Shown piece by piece: positions 3,655 through 50,825 of a stretch of 64,000 nucleotides of DNA. Positions within the stretch are counted from its first letter, which is position 1. Each line of letters opens with the position of its first letter. This stretch comes from Bacteroidota bacterium. GTDB taxonomy: Bacteria > Bacteroidota > Bacteroidia > Chitinophagales > Saprospiraceae. The translations under genes and the position numbers were made by a program. The stretch lies in the NCBI GenBank assembly GCA_020160935.1, contig JAIUPL010000008.1, forward strand, positions 124,001 to 188,000, in the 5' to 3' direction. The notes below the pieces were generated by a model, which searched no databases, had not been told where the DNA came from, and saw only the letters and a list, made by a program, of their open reading frames with translations.

Positions 3655-6600
3655 TTATTCAACCCGAAACAGGCGCGGCTTTTGATTATTGATGGTTGTC
3701 AGCACATATGGCTGACCTTTGATGCGTATGGCTTTTAATGATTTTGTATCACCCCGAATAGACAGGCCAGATTGTCGGTTTTCCACGCGGGAGTAGGTTC
3801 CGTCGCCTTTGTTGAGCAATACGTGGCCGAAACTGGCGTCCAGTTTGGAAAACTGTGGAATAAATCCGTCGTCATTTCCAGCCAGGATGAGGTCGTTTTT
3901 TCCATCTTTGTTCAAATCGCCGCACCAGATGCCACATACACAGGAAAATTGTACTTCTTTGGGAAGCGGGATTACCCTGAATTGCCCGTTGCCGTCGTTG
4001 AGTGCTACTGCAGACTTGAAATAACTGCCTTCCATAGCAATGGCTCGTTTCATGGCTTCTGCCGGAAAAAGTTCCTGGATAGACTTCTGGGCATAATCGA
4101 CATGCTTGAGGTTTTGTTTTTTCAGGCTGGGTATTTGCCCGGTCAGGTCTTTTTTCATAGGTACAGGCATGTCTTTGCCATTGATACGCCGGGTAATGAT
4201 TTTTTCGACGGTACCGTTTTGATCAAAATCGCAGACCCAGAGTTTGGAAGGTTGCTCGTGGGTGCCGGAAAAGTAAAAATTCTCGCCCCGGTTGCCAAGT
4301 ATCAGGTCCTGATCGCCATCGCCATCCACATCGTCGGATTTTACGCAGCCCCACCAACCGGAGTAATCGTTGAGGTTAGAGGAAATGGAAACAAATTTCC
4401 TGTTCCTGATTTCAAAAATGATCGGATTTCGCCATTCTCCCACAATGACAAGTTCGGGTGTTTCGTCGCCGCTGACATTAGCAAGTGTGGCGTCGGTTAC
4501 CATTCCCAGGCGTTGCAAATCCGGTGAAACCTCATTAGAGACATTTCTGAAATTGCCTTTACCATCATTTTCTAACAGGAAATGCCGTGGAGGAATGCCG
4601 TATTTGCCGGGAACGCTCCTGTTGCCTATAAATAAATCGAGATTGCCATCCTGGTTGTAGTCGAGCGCTACAGCCACGGCCGTGTTAAATCCATTGGGTG
4701 GGAGGGCCTGGTCGTTGAGTTTGAAATGGCCTTTGCCATCGTTGAAATAAAGCCTGTTGGAAAGAAAGCGCGATTCCATGGGTTGTTCATTTCCACCCGA
4801 TCCGACAAACAAATCTGCGTCGCCATCCTTGTCGGCATCAAAGAACAAGACCGCTGTGTCTTCGTAAAGCGAATCGCGATCGAAAGTAGCCTGCTCGCTT
4901 CTGACAAAGGTTCCGGCGGGTGTTTGCACATAAAGTTGCCCGCCCTGATGCAAGGCGCCGCCAATAAAAACATCATCCCGCCCGTCACCATTCACATCTG
5001 CAATATCTGCTTTTGGGCCTTCGCGAGACAGCATTCGGAAATTGAGGTTTTCCTGATAAAAATCAACAAAATCAGTGTTTTCGCGGTGCGATTCCATGTT
5101 TGAAGGCACTTCCTGGAGCAGTTTTTTACCTGTAGCCATCAGATCGTACGGATTGCCAGCCATTTCTTTCCCGGCTTGCTCCCAGGAAATTAAAATGGTC
5201 GTGTCGATGGCCGATTGGCGCTGAACGGTTTTGGTACGGTCGGGCCAAACCACTACAATCGAGTCGATTATCGGGTTTTGACCAAGCCCGAATACCATTT
5301 TGTAATCGACAGAAGACTGGAATCCGCGAGAAGGAACCAGTTGGAATTTTTTCTGCTCTTGTCCTTGATATACAGACACTTGTGCGCCAATGGCAAATGT
5401 GTTTTGGCCCTTACCCTTGAGTTGAACAGTGAGGTGGTGGTTGCCGCTGCGATCGCTAGCGTGGTTTTTATAGAGCAGGGCTTCCTGATTGACGTTGTTG
5501 ATGACCAGGTCGAGGTCGCCATCGTTGTCGAGGTCGCCATAGGCTGCTCCATTGGAGAATGAGGGGGTGGTGAAGCCCCAGCGTTCGCCCATGTCCTCGA
5601 AGGTGAGGTCGCCCCGGTTGCGGAAGGCTTTGTTCACCAGCGGATTGGAAGGCATTCGGTTGAGCACCTCGTTGATTTGTTCTTTCTGGCCCGTGAGTGC
5701 CATTTTTTGTACCACTTCATCCGCAAAGAAGTCGATAAAATCCTGATCGGTCACATCCTTGTAAATGCCGTTGCAGACATAAATATCGCGGTAGCCGTCG
5801 TTGTCCATGTCGAACATGAGCGCGCCCCAACTCCAGTCGGTAGCAGCCACGCCTGCGTAGAAGGCTATTTCGCTGAATGTTTTGTCTTTATTGTTGAGTT
5901 GCAGGCAGTTCTGCATGTATTGGTGGTAGAAACCGCGCTCCTGTTTGAGTTGATAAACGTTGTAATTTTCAAACAGGGTAGTGGTTTTCAGGCGCGTTTC
6001 ATCGCCGGGGAGCATTTCGGTGGTAAATATTTCAGGGAATCCGTCATTGTTGATGTCGGCCATATCGGCGCCCATCGACGCATGGCTCATGTGGGAAATC
6101 CAGTTTTCGATTTCCTCCTTGAAAGTGCCATCTTTTTGGTTGATGTACAGGTAGTCGCGTTCAAAAAAGTCGTTGGATACATACAGGTCGGGCCAGTTGT
6201 CGCCGTTTACATCGCCCACGGTAATACCCAGACCAAACCCGATGAGGCTGCCATAGATATGGGCCTGGCGTGTGACGTCTGTAAATTTACCATTGTCGTT
6301 GCGAAACAGTTTGTCGCCACCGCCTTTCAAAAAATCACGCACAGGCCAGTCTTCTGCATACAGTTCGCGGTTGTTGCTGTAGTTCAGGGTATTAACGGGC
6401 ATGAAACTGTTGTTCAGAATGTAGCAGTCCAGATCGCCGTCGAGGTCGTAGTCAAAAAATGCTGCGTGGGTGGTATAGCCATCTTCTGCAAGTCCGTATT
6501 CAGCCGCTTTTTCTGCAAAAACAGGCACACCATTTTGAATGCCCTGGTTGATAAACAGTTCCTTGACGGGTTTTTTGTTTTTGTCATAACCAGCGTTGCA

Positions 6601-7005
6601 CACAAAAATATCCAGTAGTCCGTCGGCATTTATATCGACCATTACCACACCGGTACTCCAGAAGCCGGTACCGGCTACACCCGCTTTTTCTGTAATATCT
6701 TCAAACTGGAAGTTGCCTTTATTGAGGAACAACTTGTTATCGCCCATATTCGAGGTGAGGTAAATATCGCTTAGGCCGTCATTGTTTACGTCGCCAATGG
6801 CAGCGCCTCCGCCGTTGTAGAAATTGCGGTAACTGAAGATATTGAAGTCCTCCGTGTTCTCTACTTTATTGACGAAGCGAACACCCGAATCGTCAGCCGA
6901 AACCTGTTCAAAAAGTGCATCGGCATTTTTCTTTTTTCCACAGGACAGAAAAATGGAAAGCAGGGAAAACAGCAGGAATGTGATGGTTATGCGTAAATAC
7001 ATCAT
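3655..7005 (-). CDS. FG-GAP/VCBS repeat and ASPIC/UnbV lipoprotein
   Basis: This 1116-residue protein begins with a lipoprotein signal (LRITITFLLFSLLSIFLSC, lipid cysteine at 22). The body is built from FG-GAP/VCBS-type repeats with calcium-loop-like motifs (DVNNDGLSDIYL, DINADGLLDIFV, DYDLDGDLDCYI, DMDNDGYRDIYV and others), which fold into beta-propellers. An ASPIC/UnbV domain sits near the middle (GNHHLTVQLKG to VVVWPD), and a second propeller follows. Such proteins often accompany SusC/SusD pairs as surface accessory proteins; the ligand is unknown. Two adjacent ATGs (7005, 7002) fit the signal peptide; a longer reading from 7068 would put 21 charged residues before it and is not used. A terminator separates it from susD, so it is probably transcribed on its own. 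Confidence 0.88.
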   Translation of the reverse strand: MMYLRITITFLLFSLLSIFLSCGKKKNADALFEQVSADDSGVRFVNKVENTEDFNIFSYRNFYNGGGAAIGDVNNDGLSDIYLTSNMGDNKLFLNKGNFQFEDITEKAGVAGTGFWSTGVVMVDINADGLLDIFVCNAGYDKNKKPVKELFINQGIQNGVPVFAEKAAEYGLAEDGYTTHAAFFDYDLDGDLDCYILNNSFMPVNTLNYSNNRELYAEDWPVRDFLKGGGDKLFRNDNGKFTDVTRQAHIYGSLIGFGLGITVGDVNGDNWPDLYVSNDFFERDYLYINQKDGTFKEEIENWISHMSHASMGADMADINNDGFPEIFTTEMLPGDETRLKTTTLFENYNVYQLKQERGFYHQYMQNCLQLNNKDKTFSEIAFYAGVAATDWSWGALMFDMDNDGYRDIYVCNGIYKDVTDQDFIDFFADEVVQKMALTGQKEQINEVLNRMPSNPLVNKAFRNRGDLTFEDMGERWGFTTPSFSNGAAYGDLDNDGDLDLVINNVNQEALLYKNHASDRSGNHHLTVQLKGKGQNTFAIGAQVSVYQGQEQKKFQLVPSRGFQSSVDYKMVFGLGQNPIIDSIVVVWPDRTKTVQRQSAIDTTILISWEQAGKEMAGNPYDLMATGKKLLQEVPSNMESHRENTDFVDFYQENLNFRMLSREGPKADIADVNGDGRDDVFIGGALHQGGQLYVQTPAGTFVRSEQATFDRDSLYEDTAVLFFDADKDGDADLFVGSGGNEQPMESRFLSNRLYFNDGKGHFKLNDQALPPNGFNTAVAVALDYNQDGNLDLFIGNRSVPGKYGIPPRHFLLENDGKGNFRNVSNEVSPDLQRLGMVTDATLANVSGDETPELVIVGEWRNPIIFEIRNRKFVSISSNLNDYSGWWGCVKSDDVDGDGDQDLILGNRGENFYFSGTHEQPSKLWVCDFDQNGTVEKIITRRINGKDMPVPMKKDLTGQIPSLKKQNLKHVDYAQKSIQELFPAEAMKRAIAMEGSYFKSAVALNDGNGQFRVIPLPKEVQFSCVCGIWCGDLNKDGKNDLILAGNDDGFIPQFSKLDASFGHVLLNKGDGTYSRVENRQSGLSIRGDTKSLKAIRIKGQPYVLTTINNQKPRLFRVE

Positions 7006-7096
7006 GCGAAAAAGGGTGCGGCTCCTTGGGCCATGCCATTGCAAAAAAAGGAATGTCTTCTCCTGCAAAGATGATAAAAACGGTTGGGTTGGCCGG

Positions 7097-7130
7097 AAAA
7101 AAGATAGGCTGCCTTTTTGGGCAGCCTATC
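7097..7130 (-). terminator. Rho-independent terminator after SusD
   Basis: Read on the minus strand, GATAGGCTGCC and GGCAGCCTATC form a perfect 11-bp stem with a 6-base loop, followed directly by six T. It lies 38 bases past the SusD stop codon. It ends the SusC-SusD transcript ahead of the FG-GAP gene. Confidence 0.93.
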
Positions 7131-7167
7131 GATATTCCTTCTGATTTCCGTTGGAACGGAAAGGGAA

Positions 7168-8664
7168 TTAATAACCGTCGTTTTGCTTCAGGTTCGGGTT
7201 GGAGTCCAGAGCCTGTTGCGGGATCGGGAACAGTACACGAGCCGGGTCGGTAACTGTTTTGTACGACCATGTCGACGTCCAGGTACCGAAACGAATCTGG
7301 TCGGTACGGCGGTTGCCTTCCCAGTACAGTTCGCGGCCACGTTCGTCGAGCATATTGGCATCTGTCAGAGAAGACAGCGCCGATGCGCCACGGGTGCTGC
7401 GAAGAGTGTTCACCATATCCAGCGCGCTTACGCTGGCAGTACCGCCACGCATAATGGCTTCCGCTTTCATCAGGTAAACATCGGCATAACGCAGCAGGAT
7501 GTACTGACCTGCATCGGATGGGTGGTACTTGATTACGCGGATACCTTTTTCAGAACTTGCGCCGGCGAGTGGCACGTCGCGAGTGAACTGCAGCGGCAGA
7601 CCATTGCGGCTGTTGATGATGACATCACCGTTGTCTTTGTACTGCTGGCCTTCCAGGAAGCCACGGCCGATACCGGAGAAGGTAGCGCCATTGTGGGCAG
7701 CAGGAATACCTTTACGTTGGTCGCTGTTTTCGAATTTGTCGTAGAAATCAGCCAGCGTAGTGAAGCCATTCCAGCCGCTTGGGTTCTGGTCGTAGTGCAG
7801 CGTCATGAACCAGCGGTTCTGTGGAGAACCTTCTGCGCTGGTGAAGATCACTTCTGACGATGCGCTGGTGCTGAAGTTGGTGAAGTAGTTCGACTCCAGG
7901 CTGTAACCTGCAGCAGTCACAGCATCGCAGTAAGAAATCACCTTGTTCATATCTGCAGCATCAAACGTGTATGGTCCGGCCGGGTTAGCGGATTTGTACA
8001 CGGCTTTGTTCAGGTACAGACGAGCGAGCAGTGCGTTGGCAGCAGCCTTCGTTGCTTTGGAATTGGCAGCAACCGGGCCGGAGTTTGGCAGGTTGGGCAG
8101 TGCTTCTTCCAGGTCGCGGGTGATGAAGTCGAATGCTTCCGAACGTGTGTAAACTTTCGGATTTACCTCCACACCTTCGTCTACGTTACGGAATGGTACC
8201 TGACCAAACAGATCCATTACGTGGAACATGAAGAATGCGCGCAGGAACTTGGCTTCAGCCGCTTGCTGTGCATTCGGATTGGAAGCCAGTACCTGATTGC
8301 AACGATACACACGCTCGTTCAACTGGTTCCAGGAAGCCAGTACGTAAGAGTGTGTAGCATCCCAGGTGTGCTGGTGCAGTGTACGCCAAACGCCGTTGTC
8401 ACCCCAGTCGGTACCACGTGTTGGCGGAATCATCTCGTCAGACGTGTGGTCGAGCAGAGCATAGATATTGGCCTGGTCGGTGAATGCACCCAGGTCTTTG
8501 TAGGAAGTAACCAGGGCCTGTGCTGGGTCACCAGGGACGAATACGCCACCGGCGCCTTCCCGCACCTGAGAATCCCGGATCTCCGGTTCCAGATTGGTAC
8601 ATGCCGAGAATGCGAATGCTCCCAGCAGCGCTACCATGGAAAACTTAAGAGTTTTGTAATTCAT
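7168..8664 (-). CDS. SusD/RagB-family nutrient-binding lipoprotein
   Basis: The 498-residue protein begins with a lipoprotein signal (MVALLGAFAFSAC, lipid cysteine at 22). It shows SusD features: helical tetratricopeptide-like segments (AEAKFLRAFFMFHVMDLFGQVPFRN), the KATKAAANALLARLYLNKAVY block, the YILLRYADVYLMKAEAI motif, and a C-terminal FPIPQQALDSNPNLKQNDGY tail that defines the family. SusD proteins sit as lids on their SusC transporter at the cell surface. It starts 18 bases after the SusC gene, so the two form one operon. The substrate cannot be told; no glycoside hydrolase or protease gene is in the same transcription unit. Confidence 0.96.
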   Translation of the reverse strand: MNYKTLKFSMVALLGAFAFSACTNLEPEIRDSQVREGAGGVFVPGDPAQALVTSYKDLGAFTDQANIYALLDHTSDEMIPPTRGTDWGDNGVWRTLHQHTWDATHSYVLASWNQLNERVYRCNQVLASNPNAQQAAEAKFLRAFFMFHVMDLFGQVPFRNVDEGVEVNPKVYTRSEAFDFITRDLEEALPNLPNSGPVAANSKATKAAANALLARLYLNKAVYKSANPAGPYTFDAADMNKVISYCDAVTAAGYSLESNYFTNFSTSASSEVIFTSAEGSPQNRWFMTLHYDQNPSGWNGFTTLADFYDKFENSDQRKGIPAAHNGATFSGIGRGFLEGQQYKDNGDVIINSRNGLPLQFTRDVPLAGASSEKGIRVIKYHPSDAGQYILLRYADVYLMKAEAIMRGGTASVSALDMVNTLRSTRGASALSSLTDANMLDERGRELYWEGNRRTDQIRFGTWTSTWSYKTVTDPARVLFPIPQQALDSNPNLKQNDGY

Positions 8665-44134: not shown

Positions 44135-44977
44135 TTATTTCAAACGGCTGTGCAACAAACTTTGAACCGCTTCTTCAAAACCGGCCGGGCCTGTACCCGA
44201 TGTTCTTCGTAAACCGTCCAGTTCTATTTGTGCATAGTTTCCATCTGCCCTGCGTACCTGGAATGCGATATCTGCACAATTTAACATCGGCAGATCATTC
44301 GGACTGTCGCCAATAGCGGCAAATACGGGAGAGGACGTGGTTTGTCTGAAAATTGACATAAGGTGTCGTACGGCAACCCCTTTATTCGTCGATGCCGATT
44401 GAATTGTCAGAAAACGCCCACCCTGGCTGGTTGAAAAACCCGACACTGCAAGGGCATTCAGAAATTCGGGAGTGTTTTTGGCTTCCGGCGTTTCTACAAG
44501 TGTCTCCGTGAACCAGCGATCCCGGGCGCGCAGAAGCGCTTCCCCATGCAGGCCTGTATGCAACGACAGTTCAGCGTCCGACACATCAGAAAAGCCACGC
44601 ACCGCTGGAAACCGCTTAATAATCTGATGCAGCGCGCTTGTATCCGTATGCGCCAAGGCAAATACCTCGTGTTTTTCCGTATCGATATACCTGGGTAAAA
44701 CAGGAAGTATTTCGGACGGAAAATAACCTTTCGGGATAACAAGCGCGCTGCCGTTTTCAATGATGAAAGGGGCATCAACACTCATTTGTTGTTGCAAATA
44801 CACCTGTTCGGAGTATGTTTTGGAGGAACAAAACACCAATGGAACATGATGGATTTCAAGTTCTTTCAGCGCTTGCTCTGACCGCCGGTAGGAATAGGTA
44901 TGATGGTCAATCAAAGTGCCATCAAGATCGGTAAACAGCACCAGCGACTGATCGTTTCGGACGGGTAGTGTGATCAT
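44135..44977 (-). CDS. mpgP: Mannosyl-3-phosphoglycerate phosphatase
   Basis: The 280-residue HAD-superfamily (type IIB cap) enzyme dephosphorylates mannosyl-3-phosphoglycerate to mannosylglycerate, a compatible solute. HAD motifs: LFTDLDGTLIDHHTYSYRRS (nucleophile and acid Asp), PLVFCSSKTYSEQVYLQ (motif II region with the MPGP-typical SSKT), and AAIGDSPNDLPML (motif IV). The start overlaps the stop of the synthase gene by 4 bases (ATGA), so the two are translationally coupled. Together they form the two-step synthesis route. Confidence 0.93.
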   Translation of the reverse strand: MITLPVRNDQSLVLFTDLDGTLIDHHTYSYRRSEQALKELEIHHVPLVFCSSKTYSEQVYLQQQMSVDAPFIIENGSALVIPKGYFPSEILPVLPRYIDTEKHEVFALAHTDTSALHQIIKRFPAVRGFSDVSDAELSLHTGLHGEALLRARDRWFTETLVETPEAKNTPEFLNALAVSGFSTSQGGRFLTIQSASTNKGVAVRHLMSIFRQTTSSPVFAAIGDSPNDLPMLNCADIAFQVRRADGNYAQIELDGLRRTSGTGPAGFEEAVQSLLHSRLK

Positions 44978-46170
44978 GCCGGAACGAAATTGCTGTGTTT
45001 AGCCCAGTCTGCCACCCGATTGGCGGCATCAAAATTCATGTTAATCAGGGCTGGATATCGATGTGCAATGACCGGAGTCGCGCCTTTTCCAATAATTTTT
45101 TGTCGTTTCAGTTCCAGGAGTATTTCTTTCTGGGCATTTGCCGGGCACAATTTGGAATGATACAAAGCCGCGAGAGAATATTCGATCATTTCACGAATAT
45201 GGTCGTTGCCTTTGCTGGCTTCATGCAGGTGAGGATTGCGCGATTCTACCTGAAAAATTTCCACACCTGCTTTCAATACTTCCGGATAGGGGCAATCCAG
45301 AATACCTCCGAATTTTTCCATCATATTGACGAAATGGTAGGTTTCTATGGAGAACCCTGTGGTGTAATCCAGCAATAGTGCCAGCGGCATGGAAAGTGCA
45401 TGTTCTCCTGCGTTTCCTGTTCTTACAAGTTCCGTTTCAAAACCGGTATAATGACTTAGCAGCATGTTCAGGTAATGATTGGTAATGCGCGAGACACGTC
45501 CCCATTTGGCAAAAAACAGATCGGAACCTACAACCTTGGGCTTGCTATGCCACTGTATTCGAGTCATGGAATAGGGCGTTTTGCTTTGTGCAAAGCCGGC
45601 AGCATAGATGCTTGAATATTCGAAGACAGAACCGGGAAAGAAGTTGTCAGCATCGATAAAACCTACATATTTTTTCCCAAGAAGTTTGGCAAGTACAATG
45701 CCGGCCAACATGCCTTCTGCTTTTCCGTTGCGCACCAGTCCTTCTTCATCGAGCAGGTGCGGATAGTCACCCTGCCTGAATAATTCTGCAAGTTCCAAAG
45801 ACCGCTGGTGAGCGATCACATACTTTTTTTTGGCATACCTGCAGAAAGTGTCGATCATATTACGCTCCATAGCATACCGGTCGACATGTTCCCTTTTGCT
45901 ATTGGAAACAATAATAGGCATGCAGGCGTGTGGAATGCCGCACAAAACGCCTTCGAGCAAGCGCAAGCGCTCGTCTTTCACAGGTATGACAATGGCCATA
46001 TCCTGTTCTATTTCGTGTAATTTGTCTTGAGGAATTTGCTGAATAACATGAAAAGGGCTGGAAAATTCGTCGTCCAAATGCAGCCCACCATCCAGTTCGT
46101 AAATCTTCTGTACCTGATAAAACAGGTTTGCGCCGAAACGCTCGGCGCGTGCCGGTAGTTCTAATCTCAT
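44974..46170 (-). CDS. mpgS: Mannosyl-3-phosphoglycerate synthase (GT78)
   Basis: The 398-residue glycosyltransferase joins GDP-mannose and 3-phosphoglycerate. It begins MRLELPARAERFGANLFYQV, very like the family N-terminus, then AIVIPVKDERLRLLEGVLCG, PIIVSNSKREHVDRYAM, and the metal-binding FIDADNFFPGSVFEY. A longer reading from 46266 would include the promoter at 46207-46236, so the ATG at 46170 is right. The pathway is best known from thermophiles and salt-tolerant bacteria such as Rhodothermus, where mannosylglycerate protects against salt and heat. A promoter close to the start implies transcription independent of neighbours. Confidence 0.95.
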   Translation of the reverse strand: MRLELPARAERFGANLFYQVQKIYELDGGLHLDDEFSSPFHVIQQIPQDKLHEIEQDMAIVIPVKDERLRLLEGVLCGIPHACMPIIVSNSKREHVDRYAMERNMIDTFCRYAKKKYVIAHQRSLELAELFRQGDYPHLLDEEGLVRNGKAEGMLAGIVLAKLLGKKYVGFIDADNFFPGSVFEYSSIYAAGFAQSKTPYSMTRIQWHSKPKVVGSDLFFAKWGRVSRITNHYLNMLLSHYTGFETELVRTGNAGEHALSMPLALLLDYTTGFSIETYHFVNMMEKFGGILDCPYPEVLKAGVEIFQVESRNPHLHEASKGNDHIREMIEYSLAALYHSKLCPANAQKEILLELKRQKIIGKGATPVIAHRYPALINMNFDAANRVADWAKHSNFVPA

Positions 46171-46206
46171 TTCTAAACGATTTGGTGATAAAAGTGGTGA
46201 GGTAAA

Positions 46207-46236
46207 CGAAGGTAGCATTTTTCGGGAGGGCGGCAA
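46207..46236 (-). promoter_or_regulatory. Promoter of the mannosylglycerate operon
   Basis: On the minus strand TTG (46234-46236) and TACCTTCG (46207-46214, one mismatch from TAnnTTTG) are spaced by 19 bases. The start codon at 46170 is 36 bases further on. The position decides the start of mpgS. Confidence 0.68.
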
Positions 46237-46407
46237 AGAAAAACGCCTGATTTTCGGACTGCTCAATAGGGTATAAGGATGTCTGACCGGGATGTTTGCC
46301 TTCTTTTTTTCCTCTTTTGCCGAATCAACTCAGGGTCTGACCGAAGTTTGGGCGGTTGCCCGTTTCCTTACAACACATTTGCAGTATTGTAAAAAACAAA
46401 TGCTGTT

Positions 46408-47979
46408 ATGAAAAAGATATTTCTTGTTGTCATTGGGGGCAGTTGCCTGTTGTTGGGGGCTTTATCAAGTGTCATTTATGAAAATTCCCCGCCACCGGGT
46501 TCTGCCCTTCTACCTCTTCAAACAAAGGATAGTATCCCTCAAAACCTGGCCTCGCCCCCAGAAAAAATCACCTGGAAAATCGACGATATCCCTCATCGTA
46601 CCCTTCATTTTTCGCCGGTAGGCGCTGTTTCGCTGTATGGCAATATGACCCGCCCGACATCGGTATCGTTGTTCATCAGTGGGGATGGAGGCTGGGATGC
46701 TGGCGTCGACGGCATGGCAAAAACACTGGCGCAGGACGGACAGGCCTTGGTGGCGGGCATCGATATTGTCCAGTACTACAAAAAATTACATGCCAACAAT
46801 AGCGCCTGCCTGTATCCTGCCGGTGACATGGAAAATCTGGCCGAGTTTATTCAAAAGGAACTGCACTTGCCAGATTACCATAAACCAGTACTCGTAGGCT
46901 ATTCATCGGGCGCAACGCTGGTGTACACATTGCTTTGTCAGGCGCCAGCAGGCACTTTCAGAGGTGGTATTGCCCTGGGTTTTTGCCCCGAAATCGAGAT
47001 TGACAAGCCGCTCTGCGAGGGATCGGGTACGCTTGAAATGAAGCGCCGAATAAAGGGCCGAGGGTTCGATTTTGTAGATCAACCCGCTCCTTTTTCACCA
47101 CTGGAAGTGTTGCAAGGCGAACGCGATGCAGTGTGCGATTGTACCAGTGCCTGCAATTTTTTTGATCAGGTGAAGCAGGTTCATGTGACGCGACTGCCGG
47201 AGGCCGGGCATGGGTTTTCCGTGAAAGAAAGTTGGTTGCCGCAATTTAAAACGGCGTATAACCGCATTTTATCCGAAACCCCACAGTCAACAGGTATGTT
47301 ACTACCCAATGGAGCATCAGCCGTACCCGTTGCAATGGCTGCTGCTGGCTATTCCGGGCGCGACGTTCAGGAACTTCCTTTGAATATTACATCTGCTCCT
47401 GTCGATGACAAACGCCCTTTGGTGGTATTCCTGAGTGGCGACGGTGGCTGGACGGGGTTTGACCAGCAAATTTGTGGCGAACTTGCTGCCCAACACTATC
47501 CCAGTCTAGGTCTCAATTGTCAGTCCTATTTTTGGAAAAGAAAAACACCCGAACAGGCGACAGCTGATCTGACGCCGGTATTGCGCAAGTACCTGCAAGA
47601 CTGGGGAAAAACAGGAATTATCCTGGTGGGCTACAGTTTCGGCGCCAACGTAGCGCCTTTTGTTGAAAACAGGCTGCCCGACGATTTGCGCAGCAAAATC
47701 AAGAGCATCGTACTGCTGTCGCCCGATACTAAAGGCGATTTTGAAATACACGTAGCCGGTATGCTTGGAAAAAGCGGCGGCCCATATGATGTGATTGCCG
47801 AAATACGTAGCATCCAAAACGCGCCGGTGCTTTGTGTGCGTGGCGAACAGGAAAACACAGAGGTTCAAACGGCACTCCAAGGCGCGGCGCATGTGCAGTT
47901 TATGCATTTGCCCGGTTCGCACCATTACGACAACAACGCGACAAAGGTAGCGGCAGTTATCGAAACCACAATTAAATAA
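46408..47979 (+). CDS. acvB: AcvB/VirJ-family hydrolase with two VirJ-like halves
   Basis: The 523-residue protein has an N-terminal signal or anchor (IFLVVIGGSCLLLGALSSVI) and two alpha/beta-hydrolase halves. Each half has the VirJ hallmark SGDGGW (residues 91-96 and 343-348) and a nucleophile elbow: GYSSGA with Ser166 and GYSFGA with Ser410. Candidate histidines are EAGHGFS and GSHHYDNN. In Agrobacterium and Rhizobium tropici the related AcvB/AtvA hydrolyses lysyl-phosphatidylglycerol in the periplasm and is encoded with lpiA, an MprF homologue. Here too an mprF gene follows, with an odd tRNA-Lys gene between. The role in controlling lysyl-lipid level follows from that family knowledge and this context. 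Confidence 0.88.
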   Translation: MKKIFLVVIGGSCLLLGALSSVIYENSPPPGSALLPLQTKDSIPQNLASPPEKITWKIDDIPHRTLHFSPVGAVSLYGNMTRPTSVSLFISGDGGWDAGVDGMAKTLAQDGQALVAGIDIVQYYKKLHANNSACLYPAGDMENLAEFIQKELHLPDYHKPVLVGYSSGATLVYTLLCQAPAGTFRGGIALGFCPEIEIDKPLCEGSGTLEMKRRIKGRGFDFVDQPAPFSPLEVLQGERDAVCDCTSACNFFDQVKQVHVTRLPEAGHGFSVKESWLPQFKTAYNRILSETPQSTGMLLPNGASAVPVAMAAAGYSGRDVQELPLNITSAPVDDKRPLVVFLSGDGGWTGFDQQICGELAAQHYPSLGLNCQSYFWKRKTPEQATADLTPVLRKYLQDWGKTGIILVGYSFGANVAPFVENRLPDDLRSKIKSIVLLSPDTKGDFEIHVAGMLGKSGGPYDVIAEIRSIQNAPVLCVRGEQENTEVQTALQGAAHVQFMHLPGSHHYDNNATKVAAVIETTIK

Positions 47980-48093: not shown

Positions 48094-48166
48094 GACCGCA
48101 TATCTCAGTGGCAGAGTACCCGGCTCTTTACCGGGGCTACGGAGTGTTCGATTCCTCCTGCGGTCA
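48094..48166 (+). tRNA. Unusual tRNA-Lys(CTT)-like gene upstream of mprF
   Basis: A full cloverleaf can be drawn. The acceptor stem GACCGCA (48094-48100) pairs perfectly with TGCGGTC (48159-48165) and the discriminator is A (48166). T8, A14, G18, G19 and A21 are in place. The anticodon stem CCCGG/CCGGG (48119-48123, 48131-48135) is perfect and the loop CTCTTTA gives anticodon CTT (48126-48128), that is lysine. The T-loop TTCGATT is canonical. Oddities: T10-T25 is a mismatch in the D-stem; the T-stem GGAG-G/CCTCC pairs fully only if T48145 is bulged out; position 37 is T where lysine tRNAs have A (the t6A site); CCA is not encoded. LysRS identity bases (A73, U35, U36) remain. It lies 114 bases after acvB and 79 bases before mprF, whose product uses Lys-tRNA. 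It could instead be a decayed tRNA copy. Confidence 0.82.
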
Positions 48167-48245
48167 CTGGAAGAAAGATTGTTTCATTATCGGCCGGGGG
48201 GCGGAAGCGATGCCCGGCTTATCTTTTCCTCAAATGCATACTTCC

Positions 48246-50825
48246 ATGAAACTTTCCCTGCGGGGTTCTGCAAAAAGTACCCTTGTTTCTGCTTTTATCG
48301 CCCTTTTAATGATCGCCTGGGGGCTCCATTTTATTCTGAACGAAGGCGTTCACCTGAAAGAAGTAAATGATGCCCTGGGTGCTGCCGACCGCCAGTGGTT
48401 GTATTTGGGAGCCGCACTGGGGTTGGTATATGCCTGGCTGCATGGGAAGATGTATCAAATGAGTTTCCGCGCCCTTGGTATTCGGGTTCGTGCTGAAAAC
48501 ATGGCTCGGCTGTTTCTCAAGCGCAACCTGTTCAGTGTGTTTCTTCCGGCGGGTTTTTTATCGAGTCAGGCCTTGTTTACAGGAGAAACGGCTCGCCTGG
48601 AACGCATACGCGAACGCGATGTCGCCATCGCTTCCGGCATTTTTTCTGCTTCGGCATTGTTGTCCATGATTGTGGTGGTAGCGCCGGCACTGGGCTGGTT
48701 GTTGGCGCAACAGGTATTGCCGGGTAGCGCCATCCTGGCATTTTTATCCGTGAGCATCCTTTTTTCTTTGCTCTTGTTGTGCCTCATGAATTTTGTACGA
48801 CGCGGAAAAGTGTTTCACTGGTGCAGCCGGTATTTTCCAGCGCTGACGAGTCGAATGCAGGAAATGGACTGGCTCCATTTTGAAACGCGTTATTTCATTC
48901 AAGCCATTCTATACTCCTGTCTTGTGGAGTTGGTGGGGATTTTGCATGTGTTCATTTCCATCAAAGCATTGGGAATTGAGCCCACGTGGGGTATGGCAGT
49001 AGCCGGCTATATGGCAGTATTAGTGGTGCTGATGACCTCCCCGTTTTTGCGCGGTATGGGTGCTGTGGAAGCGATGTTGAGCATGGTGCTCATCCGTTTG
49101 GGCGTACCCGCCATAGAAGCCCTTACGGCGGCTATCCTGTTCCGTTTTTTCGAATTCTGGCTGATCCTGGTTTTGACAGCGCCTGTATTTTTGTTTCGCC
49201 CCGGCAGTTTGCTGTTGCGTGTATCACCCTCCATTCTGTTGTTTGTGCTGGGCGTTATCAATATTCTATCAGGCCTTACGCCCTCTTTGCATGGACGTAT
49301 GCAGACCTTGCGGAATTACCTTCCTCTGAGCGCCATACACGCCTCTGTCGCTTTGACGATTGTCATTGGTTTTTTTCTGTTGATCACTGCATTTTACCTG
49401 TTTCAGGGCTGGCGAAGTGCCTGGTATGTGGCAATCGGTTTGAGCGCTGTGTCGCTTCTGAGCCACCTGGCCAAAGGATTCGACTATGAAGAATCTACGC
49501 TGGCGCTGCTCGTTATGGGTTCTTTGCTGTACCAACGAAACCAATATTGTGTAAAGGCCGACTTCCGTATAGGCCGGCGCCGGTGGTTGCCTGCCCTGAC
49601 CGTGGTAGCAACGGTGTGGCTGTTGGGTGCAGCAGGGTTTTACGGACTTGATCACCGGCATTTTGGCCAGGATTTCACCTGGAATGCGTCGATCCGTTAT
49701 GCCATACTCACCTTTTTACTCCAGCAACCTGAAGAATTGCATCCTTTGACACATTTCGGGGCAGAGTTTTTGAACACTATGTACCTGTTGGGTGGGATTA
49801 CCTTGTTGTATGCAGCATTTACCTTGTTCAGGCCCTTGTTTCCGCAATTTGAAAATACAGACCGGGCACGGGAAACAGCAATTTCCATGGTGCAACAATT
49901 CGGCCGCTCCTCTCTGGATTATTTTAAAACCTATTCCGATAAACAGTATTTTTTTTCCCAAAACGCCCAGTCGTTTGTATCCTATAAAAACACCCGACGT
50001 TATGCACTGGTGCTTGAAGACCCCGTTGCAGCCAATGAAAAAGATATGGTAGAGAGTATCACGGAATTTGATCGATATTGTCACAGAAATGGGCTGCGCA
50101 GCATTTATTATCGCATTCCGGAGGCCTCGGCAGCCATGTATCGACAAATGGGGAAATCACTTTTGCCGTTGGGACAGGAAGCCGTTGTGAACCTCACGCA
50201 GTTTTCCATGGATGGAAAAGATCGAAAGGCCATGCGCAATACGATTCATAAAATGGAGCGCGAGGGCTTTGTATTTCGGGTACATGATGCCCCGCTCGAC
50301 GGGCGCATATTGCAACAGTTGCGTGCTGTAAGCGATGCCTGGCTACGGATGCTACACCGCTCCGAACTGAATTTCTCACAGGGCGTTTTTGATGAAAACG
50401 AATTGAAAAATCAGACCGTTCTGACCATGGAAGATGGCGATGGGAAAATACTCGCATTCATCAACCTGATACCGGGTGCTTGTTCGTCGGAAGCCAATTT
50501 CGACATGATGCGCAGGGTAGAAGAAGCGCCGCATGGTACAATGGACTTTATGTTTGTCAATATGTTCCTTTATCTGCAAGCCAAAGGCTTTGACACTTGC
50601 AACCTCGGGCTGGTACCCATGTCAGGGCTGCAACGCACTTCCAGTTTGCCCGAAAACCTCATCAAAATGGCCTACGAGCGCATACCAAGATTTGCCGCCT
50701 ATAAATCGCTGCGTTATTTCAAGGAAAAATTCGACCCCGTGTGGGAAACAAAATACGTGGCTTTTGACAGCCAGATGGATATGGTTAACCTGCCCGCTGC
50801 ACTGGCACAGGTGCTGCGCTCGTAG
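48246..50825 (+). CDS. mprF: MprF-type lysylphosphatidylglycerol synthase/flippase
   Basis: The 859-residue membrane protein has an N-terminal region of about 14 helices (from STLVSAFIALLMIAWGLHFI on; flippase domain of the UPF0104 type to about residue 320, then further helices to about 540) and a C-terminal cytoplasmic GNAT-like transferase domain (about 545-859; RRYALVLEDPVAANEKDMVE, FSMDGKDRKAMRNTIHKMER, then NLGLVPMSGLQ and MAYERIPRFAAYKSLRYFKE). It moves lysine from Lys-tRNA to phosphatidylglycerol, making the membrane less negative and protecting against cationic peptides. The substrate amino acid (Lys rather than Ala or Arg) is suggested by the adjoining tRNA-Lys. In-frame ATGs at 48210 and 48234 are alternatives; 48246 gives the normal short tail before helix 1. 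An open frame further upstream runs across the tRNA and is rejected. Confidence 0.94.
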   Translation: MKLSLRGSAKSTLVSAFIALLMIAWGLHFILNEGVHLKEVNDALGAADRQWLYLGAALGLVYAWLHGKMYQMSFRALGIRVRAENMARLFLKRNLFSVFLPAGFLSSQALFTGETARLERIRERDVAIASGIFSASALLSMIVVVAPALGWLLAQQVLPGSAILAFLSVSILFSLLLLCLMNFVRRGKVFHWCSRYFPALTSRMQEMDWLHFETRYFIQAILYSCLVELVGILHVFISIKALGIEPTWGMAVAGYMAVLVVLMTSPFLRGMGAVEAMLSMVLIRLGVPAIEALTAAILFRFFEFWLILVLTAPVFLFRPGSLLLRVSPSILLFVLGVINILSGLTPSLHGRMQTLRNYLPLSAIHASVALTIVIGFFLLITAFYLFQGWRSAWYVAIGLSAVSLLSHLAKGFDYEESTLALLVMGSLLYQRNQYCVKADFRIGRRRWLPALTVVATVWLLGAAGFYGLDHRHFGQDFTWNASIRYAILTFLLQQPEELHPLTHFGAEFLNTMYLLGGITLLYAAFTLFRPLFPQFENTDRARETAISMVQQFGRSSLDYFKTYSDKQYFFSQNAQSFVSYKNTRRYALVLEDPVAANEKDMVESITEFDRYCHRNGLRSIYYRIPEASAAMYRQMGKSLLPLGQEAVVNLTQFSMDGKDRKAMRNTIHKMEREGFVFRVHDAPLDGRILQQLRAVSDAWLRMLHRSELNFSQGVFDENELKNQTVLTMEDGDGKILAFINLIPGACSSEANFDMMRRVEEAPHGTMDFMFVNMFLYLQAKGFDTCNLGLVPMSGLQRTSSLPENLIKMAYERIPRFAAYKSLRYFKEKFDPVWETKYVAFDSQMDMVNLPAALAQVLRS

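Follow-up and report, generated by a model that had tools for sequence, protein, structure and literature searches.

A tRNA-Lys(CTT) gene with a bulged T-stem is linked to mprF within one Chitinophagales genus and may serve as a lysine donor

An irregular tRNA-Lys(CTT) gene lies between acvB and mprF

The window, i.e. the whole stretch of 64,000 nucleotides that we analysed, carries an irregular tRNA-Lys(CTT) gene on the same strand as its neighbours, 114 bases after acvB and 79 bases ahead of the mprF start codon ATG. The features of the locus are given below, together with the corresponding bases of two further genomes of the same genus, G003 and G063 (G000 being the source genome of the window).

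46408..47979, plus strand: acvB/virJ, periplasmic Lys-PG hydrolase family (PF06057, 5.6e-58)
48094..48166, plus strand: irregular tRNA-Lys(CTT) gene (ARAGORN; RF00005, 42.4 bits; covariation over three copies)
48103..48117, plus strand: D-arm with unpaired U10-U25 (48103 and 48117), read from the sequence; U-U in G003, G-A in G063
48129, plus strand: T at tRNA position 37, read from the sequence; T in G003, A in G063, a purine in all 34 other tRNAs of the genome that were compared
48145, plus strand: extra T bulging out between positions 52 and 53, on the 5′ side of the T-stem, read from the sequence; also T in G003, with a one-base C located one step earlier as its counterpart in G063
48246..50825, plus strand: mprF/lpiA, lysyl-phosphatidylglycerol synthase and flippase family (PF09924, 5.6e-64; PF03706, 4.5e-21)

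Both domains of MprF/LpiA proteins, the LPG_synthase transmembrane domain (PF03706) and the C-terminal domain (PF09924), are present in the window MprF. The protein matched the PDB entry of LpiA (6lvf) at 1.9e-51 and scored 172 bits against the lysyl-PG synthase 4v36 versus 131 bits against the alanyl-PG synthase 4v34. The window AcvB matched AcvB 9xhm at 4e-52 with its GYSFG motif aligned, and from these MprF and AcvB comparisons the locus looks lysine-specific. According to the accessible text of PMC13197417, the lpiA-acvB operon of A. tumefaciens makes and removes Lys-PG, thereby setting its level, and LpiA in E. coli yields Lys-PG. Since LpiA works in E. coli, a special tRNA is not essential for an MprF. 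A terminator-like hairpin (48199-48215) lies between the tRNA gene and mprF; promoter and terminator scans gave nothing convincing, with one sigma-70-like site (11/12) on the minus strand. Upstream of acvB, the minus strand carries at 44135-46266 a mannosyl-3-phosphoglycerate synthase gene (PF09488, 2.6e-142), next to a gene for a HAD-type hydrolase; the two perhaps form a mannosylglycerate solute pathway.

ARAGORN called a tRNA-Lys(ctt) at 48094-48167 on the plus strand. Likewise, a search of the local stretch with RF00005 gave 42.4 bits against a gathering score of 29, so that the gene proposed by the first-pass annotation was recovered by both tools and scores above the family level as a cloverleaf. 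It was missing from the RF00005 gathering scan of the whole window and from the RF00005 scan of the whole genome; given the local score, the scan filters lose the gene. As ARAGORN found no tRNA at L099, a locus described below that bears the same faults as the window tRNA, annotation may overlook such genes.

The acceptor stem (GACCGCA/TGCGGTC, 7/7 pairs) and the anticodon stem (CCCGG/CCGGG, 5/5 pairs) are complete, the anticodon loop is CTCTTTA with the anticodon CTT at 48126-48128, and A73 is located at 48166 with CCA not encoded. The first-pass annotation had described these stems together with three faults, the bulged T of the T-stem (GGAG-T-G against C-CTCC), T37 and the U10-U25 mismatch, and a distance of 79 bases to the mprF ATG at 48246; all of this was confirmed. 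The minimum-energy fold (ViennaRNA) kept the acceptor and anticodon stems and lost the D-arm, with a z-score of -2.51 and 4 of 200 shuffles folding equally well.

The irregular tRNA differs from the other tRNAs of its genome

We then compared the window copy with tRNAs of its own genome (5.84 Mb in 51 contigs). Among the 35 tRNAs compared, which are part of the full set (34 others and the window copy), it is the only one with a pyrimidine at position 37. Without a bulge, the T-stem pairs at 5/5 in 31 of the 34 other tRNAs and at 4/5 in the remaining three, versus 3/5 in the window copy. A second copy of the odd tRNA was not detected in this genome, the sole other match being 14 bases long.

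A normal tRNA-Lys elsewhere had been anticipated and was found, as a regular tRNA-Lys(TTT) in G000 and as a normal tRNA-Lys(CTT), in addition to the odd one, in G063. Neither our model R1 nor a Lys(CTT) pattern detected any other Lys(CTT) in G000 or G003. The pattern, which misses copies with other letters, had no match in 38 of the 42 genomes of the genus, which suggests that AAG is probably read there without a tRNA-Lys(CTT). Lysine codons in eight ORFs of the window are AAA (116) and AAG (30).

The T-stem bulge is kept in relatives while pairs covary

The copy of G003, the nearest relative, is 88% identical to the window tRNA. The two differ in 9 of 74 columns, none of them in loops: eight of the nine differences form four double changes that preserve pairs, and the ninth turns a C-G into a U-G pair. 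The bulge, U37, U10-U25 and the loops are the same. The G063 copy carries A37, G10-A25 and a one-sided one-base bulge (GGG-C-GG against CCCCC). Common to all three copies are thus the one-sided one-base T-stem bulge, in place of the regular five-pair T-stem of an elongator tRNA, the broken 10-25 pair, the acceptor start GACCG and the CTT anticodon. The LysRS identity elements U35, U36 and A73, which the first-pass annotation had noted in the window, are also retained in all three. The purine 37 of elongator tRNAs is replaced by U37 in the window and G003, and G063 has A37. Persistence of the faults held in both relatives for the bulge and the broken 10-25 pair, and in G003 only for U37.

Over the three copies, five pairs were changed on both sides and the covariation score was reached in 1 of 500 shuffles (2 of 500 with the bulge moved one step); three related sequences are a small sample, and with the window and G003 copies alone 37 of 500 shuffles did equally well. 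Paired cells amounted to 98.3% versus 44-48% when the structure was slid, a difference partly due to the structure having been read from these same sequences. Loss of pairing without compensation, the mark of a tRNA pseudogene, was not what we observed: the changes preserve pairs. The three copies fit selection for the fold, faults included.

The irregular tRNA is found with mprF in the genus

We detected mprF in 4 of the 42 genus genomes (G000, G003, G004 and G063) and the odd tRNA in three of these four (G000, G003 and G063). By model R1 and the pattern, it was found in none of the 38 genomes without detected mprF. Among those 38, the Lys(CTT) pattern matched in G009 only, whose copy is regular; R1 matches reached at most 61.6 bits and, where identified, corresponded to tRNA-Lys(TTT), Val, Thr, Arg and the regular G009 copy, those below about 53 bits being mostly not assigned individually. 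Fisher's exact test of 3/4 versus 0/38 gives 4/11480 = 3.5e-4 (calculated by hand and uncorrected for relatedness).

In the three genus genomes where the stretch is assembled, the odd tRNA always lies upstream of mprF, adjacent in two and 2.8 kb away in one. The latter is G003, where tRNA and mprF share contig and strand with two ORFs between them and acvB lies 2.7 kb away on the other side of the tRNA. In G063 (a MAG, contamination 7%), the contig with the tRNA, C542, breaks off in the N-terminus of mprF, with 203 of 208 bases matching the beginning of contig C376, where the remainder of the gene lies; the tRNA precedes the possible mprF starts by 351-414 bases with no ORF of 100 aa between. 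The acvB gene of G063 is on another contig, where R1 found no tRNA. In G004, one contig stops within acvB and the mprF contig opens inside the ORF preceding mprF, so that this genome counts neither for nor against the link. Identity between the MprF of G063 and that of the window is only 39%, and the association of tRNA and mprF may thus be old.

Outside the genus, mprF was matched in 9 of 394 other genomes of the class (in G526 by the membrane half only), and neither ARAGORN nor R1 found a tRNA beside mprF in any of the nine, over distances of up to 1.5 kb. The recurrence of a bulged tRNA-Lys(CTT) upstream of mprF proposed by the first-pass annotation thus extended to G003 and G063 but not to these class genomes, and its position directly beside mprF was seen in two genomes but not in G003. 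The gene, its faults, their conservation and its genomic link to mprF within one genus are direct observations.

Near the odd tRNA, G003 (L041, 4899-5522) and G063 (L081, 4746-5357) carry Lys/Ala/Pro-rich ORFs with a signal-like start, close to ORFs named by eye as a LytTR-type regulator and histidine-kinase-like. Elsewhere in the genus, G007 and G009 (L048, L049) harbour tightly packed tRNA arrays, with 11-12 genes and many identities. A Streptosporangiaceae MAG (L092) was also observed to carry the following within 6 kb:

2362-2436, on the strand opposite to the two genes below: tRNA-Lys(CTT) with an irregular T-arm
4008-7148: MprF-like gene (tblastn, 2e-27)
6982-7998: LysRS-like ORF (named by eye)

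Bulged tRNA-Lys genes also accompany a phage fusion gene

We searched 84,980 genomes, not counting that of the window, for Lys(CTT) tRNAs carrying a single additional base between the anticodon stem and the T-loop, and this pattern matched 21 stretches. Seven of the 21 pair at 5/5 only with a bulge: G003, G063, L099, L109, and L092, L097 and L102, the last three having other readings or flaws. L099 (Anaerovibrio; bulged, with U37) and L109 (Oscillospiraceae; bulged) lie amid phage-type genes named by eye. The same pattern gave 21 matches in viral contigs, of which 15 pair at 5/5 only with a T-stem bulge. Fourteen of these 15 are beside a gene fusing a DAM-like (PF22555) and a GNAT-like (PF22559) domain, 12 of the 14 also having a weakly DUF488-like gene, 9 a ParB-like gene and 8 a match to an L099 ORF (putative small terminase); the 14 represent about eight different tRNA sequences and are therefore not independent. 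A viral tRNA-Lys(CTT) in L133 (2103-2145, plus strand) reaches full pairing only with the bulge and has none of the cassette genes sought. L116, L120, L127 and L129 pair at 4/5 with and 3/5 without a bulge, and the cassette genes sought are absent.

Conversely, the fusion protein led to 76 viral loci. ARAGORN found a tRNA within 900 bases upstream of the fusion gene in 41 of them (25 Lys, 8 Arg, 6 Gly, 1 Pro and 1 without assigned identity), and Rfam recovered one in 6 of 15 loci where ARAGORN had found none. A flexible cloverleaf score of at least 17 was reached in 56/72 loci versus 6/216 shuffled and 1/72 in-gene controls (65, 17 and 11, respectively, at 16.5), and an acceptor arch CCG...(C/T)GG-N-CNA in 63/71 loci versus 8/71 in-gene; the cut-offs and the arch were chosen post hoc and many loci are near copies. 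The cassette loci comprise L161-L236, L099, L095, L109, L113-L132 (minus L116, L117, L120, L127 and L129), L134, L137, L138 and L237-L239. Their tRNAs or tRNA-like elements are of Lys, Gly, Arg or Pro identity, perhaps Trp in L194, with a mostly CCG...CGG acceptor.

A match to the fusion protein occurs in 14 phage records, of which seven were examined. In four related Mycobacterium phages, the match has 22% identity and an annotated tRNA-Gly lies directly upstream of it. FP_Brigit carries a tRNA-Lys(CTT) that its record does not annotate, and ValentiniPuff a tRNA without assigned identity at the record end, before gene 1; ARAGORN found no tRNA in Soos. No relatives of the Taptic protein were confirmed in viral contigs.

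The model of the phage GNAT domain (pLDDT 90.1) retrieved generic GNAT acetyltransferases in a fold search, with a best E-value of 9.4e-4 and TM-scores of 0.45 or less to the model; as modelled, the domain is a GNAT fold. For Mom-type GNATs, a published view names acyl-CoA as the donor (PMC7824862, accessible text). A tRNA-dependent phage GNAT was not found among the matches listed in the open-licence literature. The arrangement suggests that the phage tRNA is the source of an amino acid transferred by the GNAT domain, perhaps to DNA, and the cassette is possibly a system of tRNA-dependent DNA modification. If this parallel is true, some phages modify DNA with amino acids carried by their own tRNAs.

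In phage cassettes as in the window, a bulged tRNA-Lys(CTT), often with U37, lies upstream of a gene whose product includes a GNAT-fold domain; in MprF this is the C-terminal domain. They differ in the acceptor, mostly CCG (C1-G72) in the phages whereas the window tRNA starts with GAC, in the other tRNA identities that occur in the cassettes, and in the enzyme, there a DNA-methylase fusion. In a tree of 26 tRNAs, the window copy fell among bacterial tRNA-Lys, with weak support and a long-branch warning. Model R1 gave 46-70 bits on phage cassette tRNAs, and nine of its best matches in other Bacteroidota (64-69 bits) were ordinary tRNA-Lys(TTT), two of them (L247, L248) with a GACCGCG acceptor. 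We considered a phage origin of the window tRNA and rejected it as the likelier reading, as the tree sets the phage copies apart. Since acceptor starts differ and the tree separates phage and window tRNAs, the bulge and U37 that they have in common are more likely convergent. Convergence, in turn, would support the pairing of such a tRNA with a GNAT-fold transferase. In a general and still tentative form, which we hold possible without favouring it, tRNAs with a bulged T-arm and averse to translation would be dedicated donors for GNAT-fold transferases and would have arisen at least twice: for lipid lysylation by MprF in this Chitinophagales genus, and for amino-acid modification of phage DNA by the DAM-like/GNAT fusion, with Lys, Gly, Arg or Pro set by the cassette tRNA.

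A proposed dedicated lysine donor and its alternatives

MprF draws on Lys-tRNA that ribosomes also use, which raises the question of how the two uses are separated. LysRS reads U35, U36 and A73, EF-Tu grips the T-stem, and position 37 carries t6A in normal tRNA-Lys, a modification that U37 makes impossible in two of the three copies. We consider it somewhat more probable than not (about 0.55) that the locus encodes a specialised but working tRNA-Lys(CTT) that is paralogous to the host tRNA-Lys and kept as lysine donor for the neighbouring MprF. LysRS would charge the odd tRNA, whose CTT anticodon and A73 are kept; the T-stem bulge, plus U37 in two species, would make it a poor substrate of EF-Tu and the ribosome. 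The Lys-tRNA left free would then be used by MprF for Lys-PG, whose level AcvB would reset. Excluded from translation, the charged tRNA would constitute a private lysine supply for MprF. Charging and avoidance of EF-Tu we infer from the known behaviour of LysRS and EF-Tu, and the use of this specific tRNA by MprF is an inference only. The dedicated-donor interpretation of the first-pass annotation is partly supported and is the best of those considered.

A tRNA-Lys(CTT) with a minor but working role in reading AAG, whose faults are tolerated and whose place in the mprF neighbourhood is due to chance, would account for the CTT anticodon in all three copies, for its being the sole Lys(CTT) found in G000 and in G003, and for A37 in G063. 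It is nevertheless rather unlikely: G063 has a normal Lys(CTT) too, 38 of the 42 genus genomes are without a Lys(CTT) pattern match, the bulge and the broken 10-25 pair persist while other bases vary, and the gene is linked to mprF. Because tRNA-Lys is a known target of anticodon nucleases (PrrC, RloC and AriB types), we also considered a tRNA that withstands or baits such an enzyme, the more so as the loop CTCTTTA and the T-stem bulge occur in phage tRNA-Lys as well. However, the phage copies accompany one enzyme gene, beside which tRNAs for Gly, Arg and Pro occur in the same place, and the bacterial copies accompany mprF, so this is very unlikely.

Location on the same strand, 79 bases upstream of mprF with the terminator-like hairpin in between, would also suit a tRNA-like leader that regulates mprF in cis or is excised from the mprF mRNA. 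The probability of such a leader is very low given the 2.8 kb and two ORFs that separate the pair in G003, a hairpin scan at chance (1 found versus 0.9 in shuffles), and an acceptor and A73 retained as for a charged tRNA. Finally, a decayed copy had been named as an alternative from the outset, and a functionless tRNA fragment, decaying or mobile, would agree with the poor T-stem and D-stem and with the absence from two Rfam scans. Covariation disfavours it, since the changes keep pairs and the element is conserved in three species, and we regard it as most improbable. Under the dedicated-donor reading, a tRNA whose gene is kept close to mprF and whose EF-Tu-binding arm bears a conserved fault would make the separation question directly testable.

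Comparison with known systems

A tRNA gene linked to mprF was not found among the matches listed in the open-licence literature; nor, within the same matches, was a lineage-restricted tRNA-lipid cassette as we describe it here. The staphylococcal tRNA-Gly paralogues that serve cell-wall synthesis are similar in being extra tRNAs thought to escape EF-Tu and to feed a non-ribosomal, aminoacyl-tRNA-dependent transferase. They differ in using glycine and FemXAB, whereas the present case involves lysine, a bulged T-stem and a gene physically linked to mprF. LysX of Actinobacteria, a LysRS joined to MprF, likewise ties a lysine-supply gene to MprF, the supplier being a synthetase there and a tRNA here. 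As in known pairs of MprF/LpiA with AcvB, both enzymes are encoded side by side and the window MprF is nearer to the lysine type. The accessible text on the lpiA-acvB operon (PMC13197417) mentions no tRNA gene, whereas in the window a tRNA gene lies between the two.
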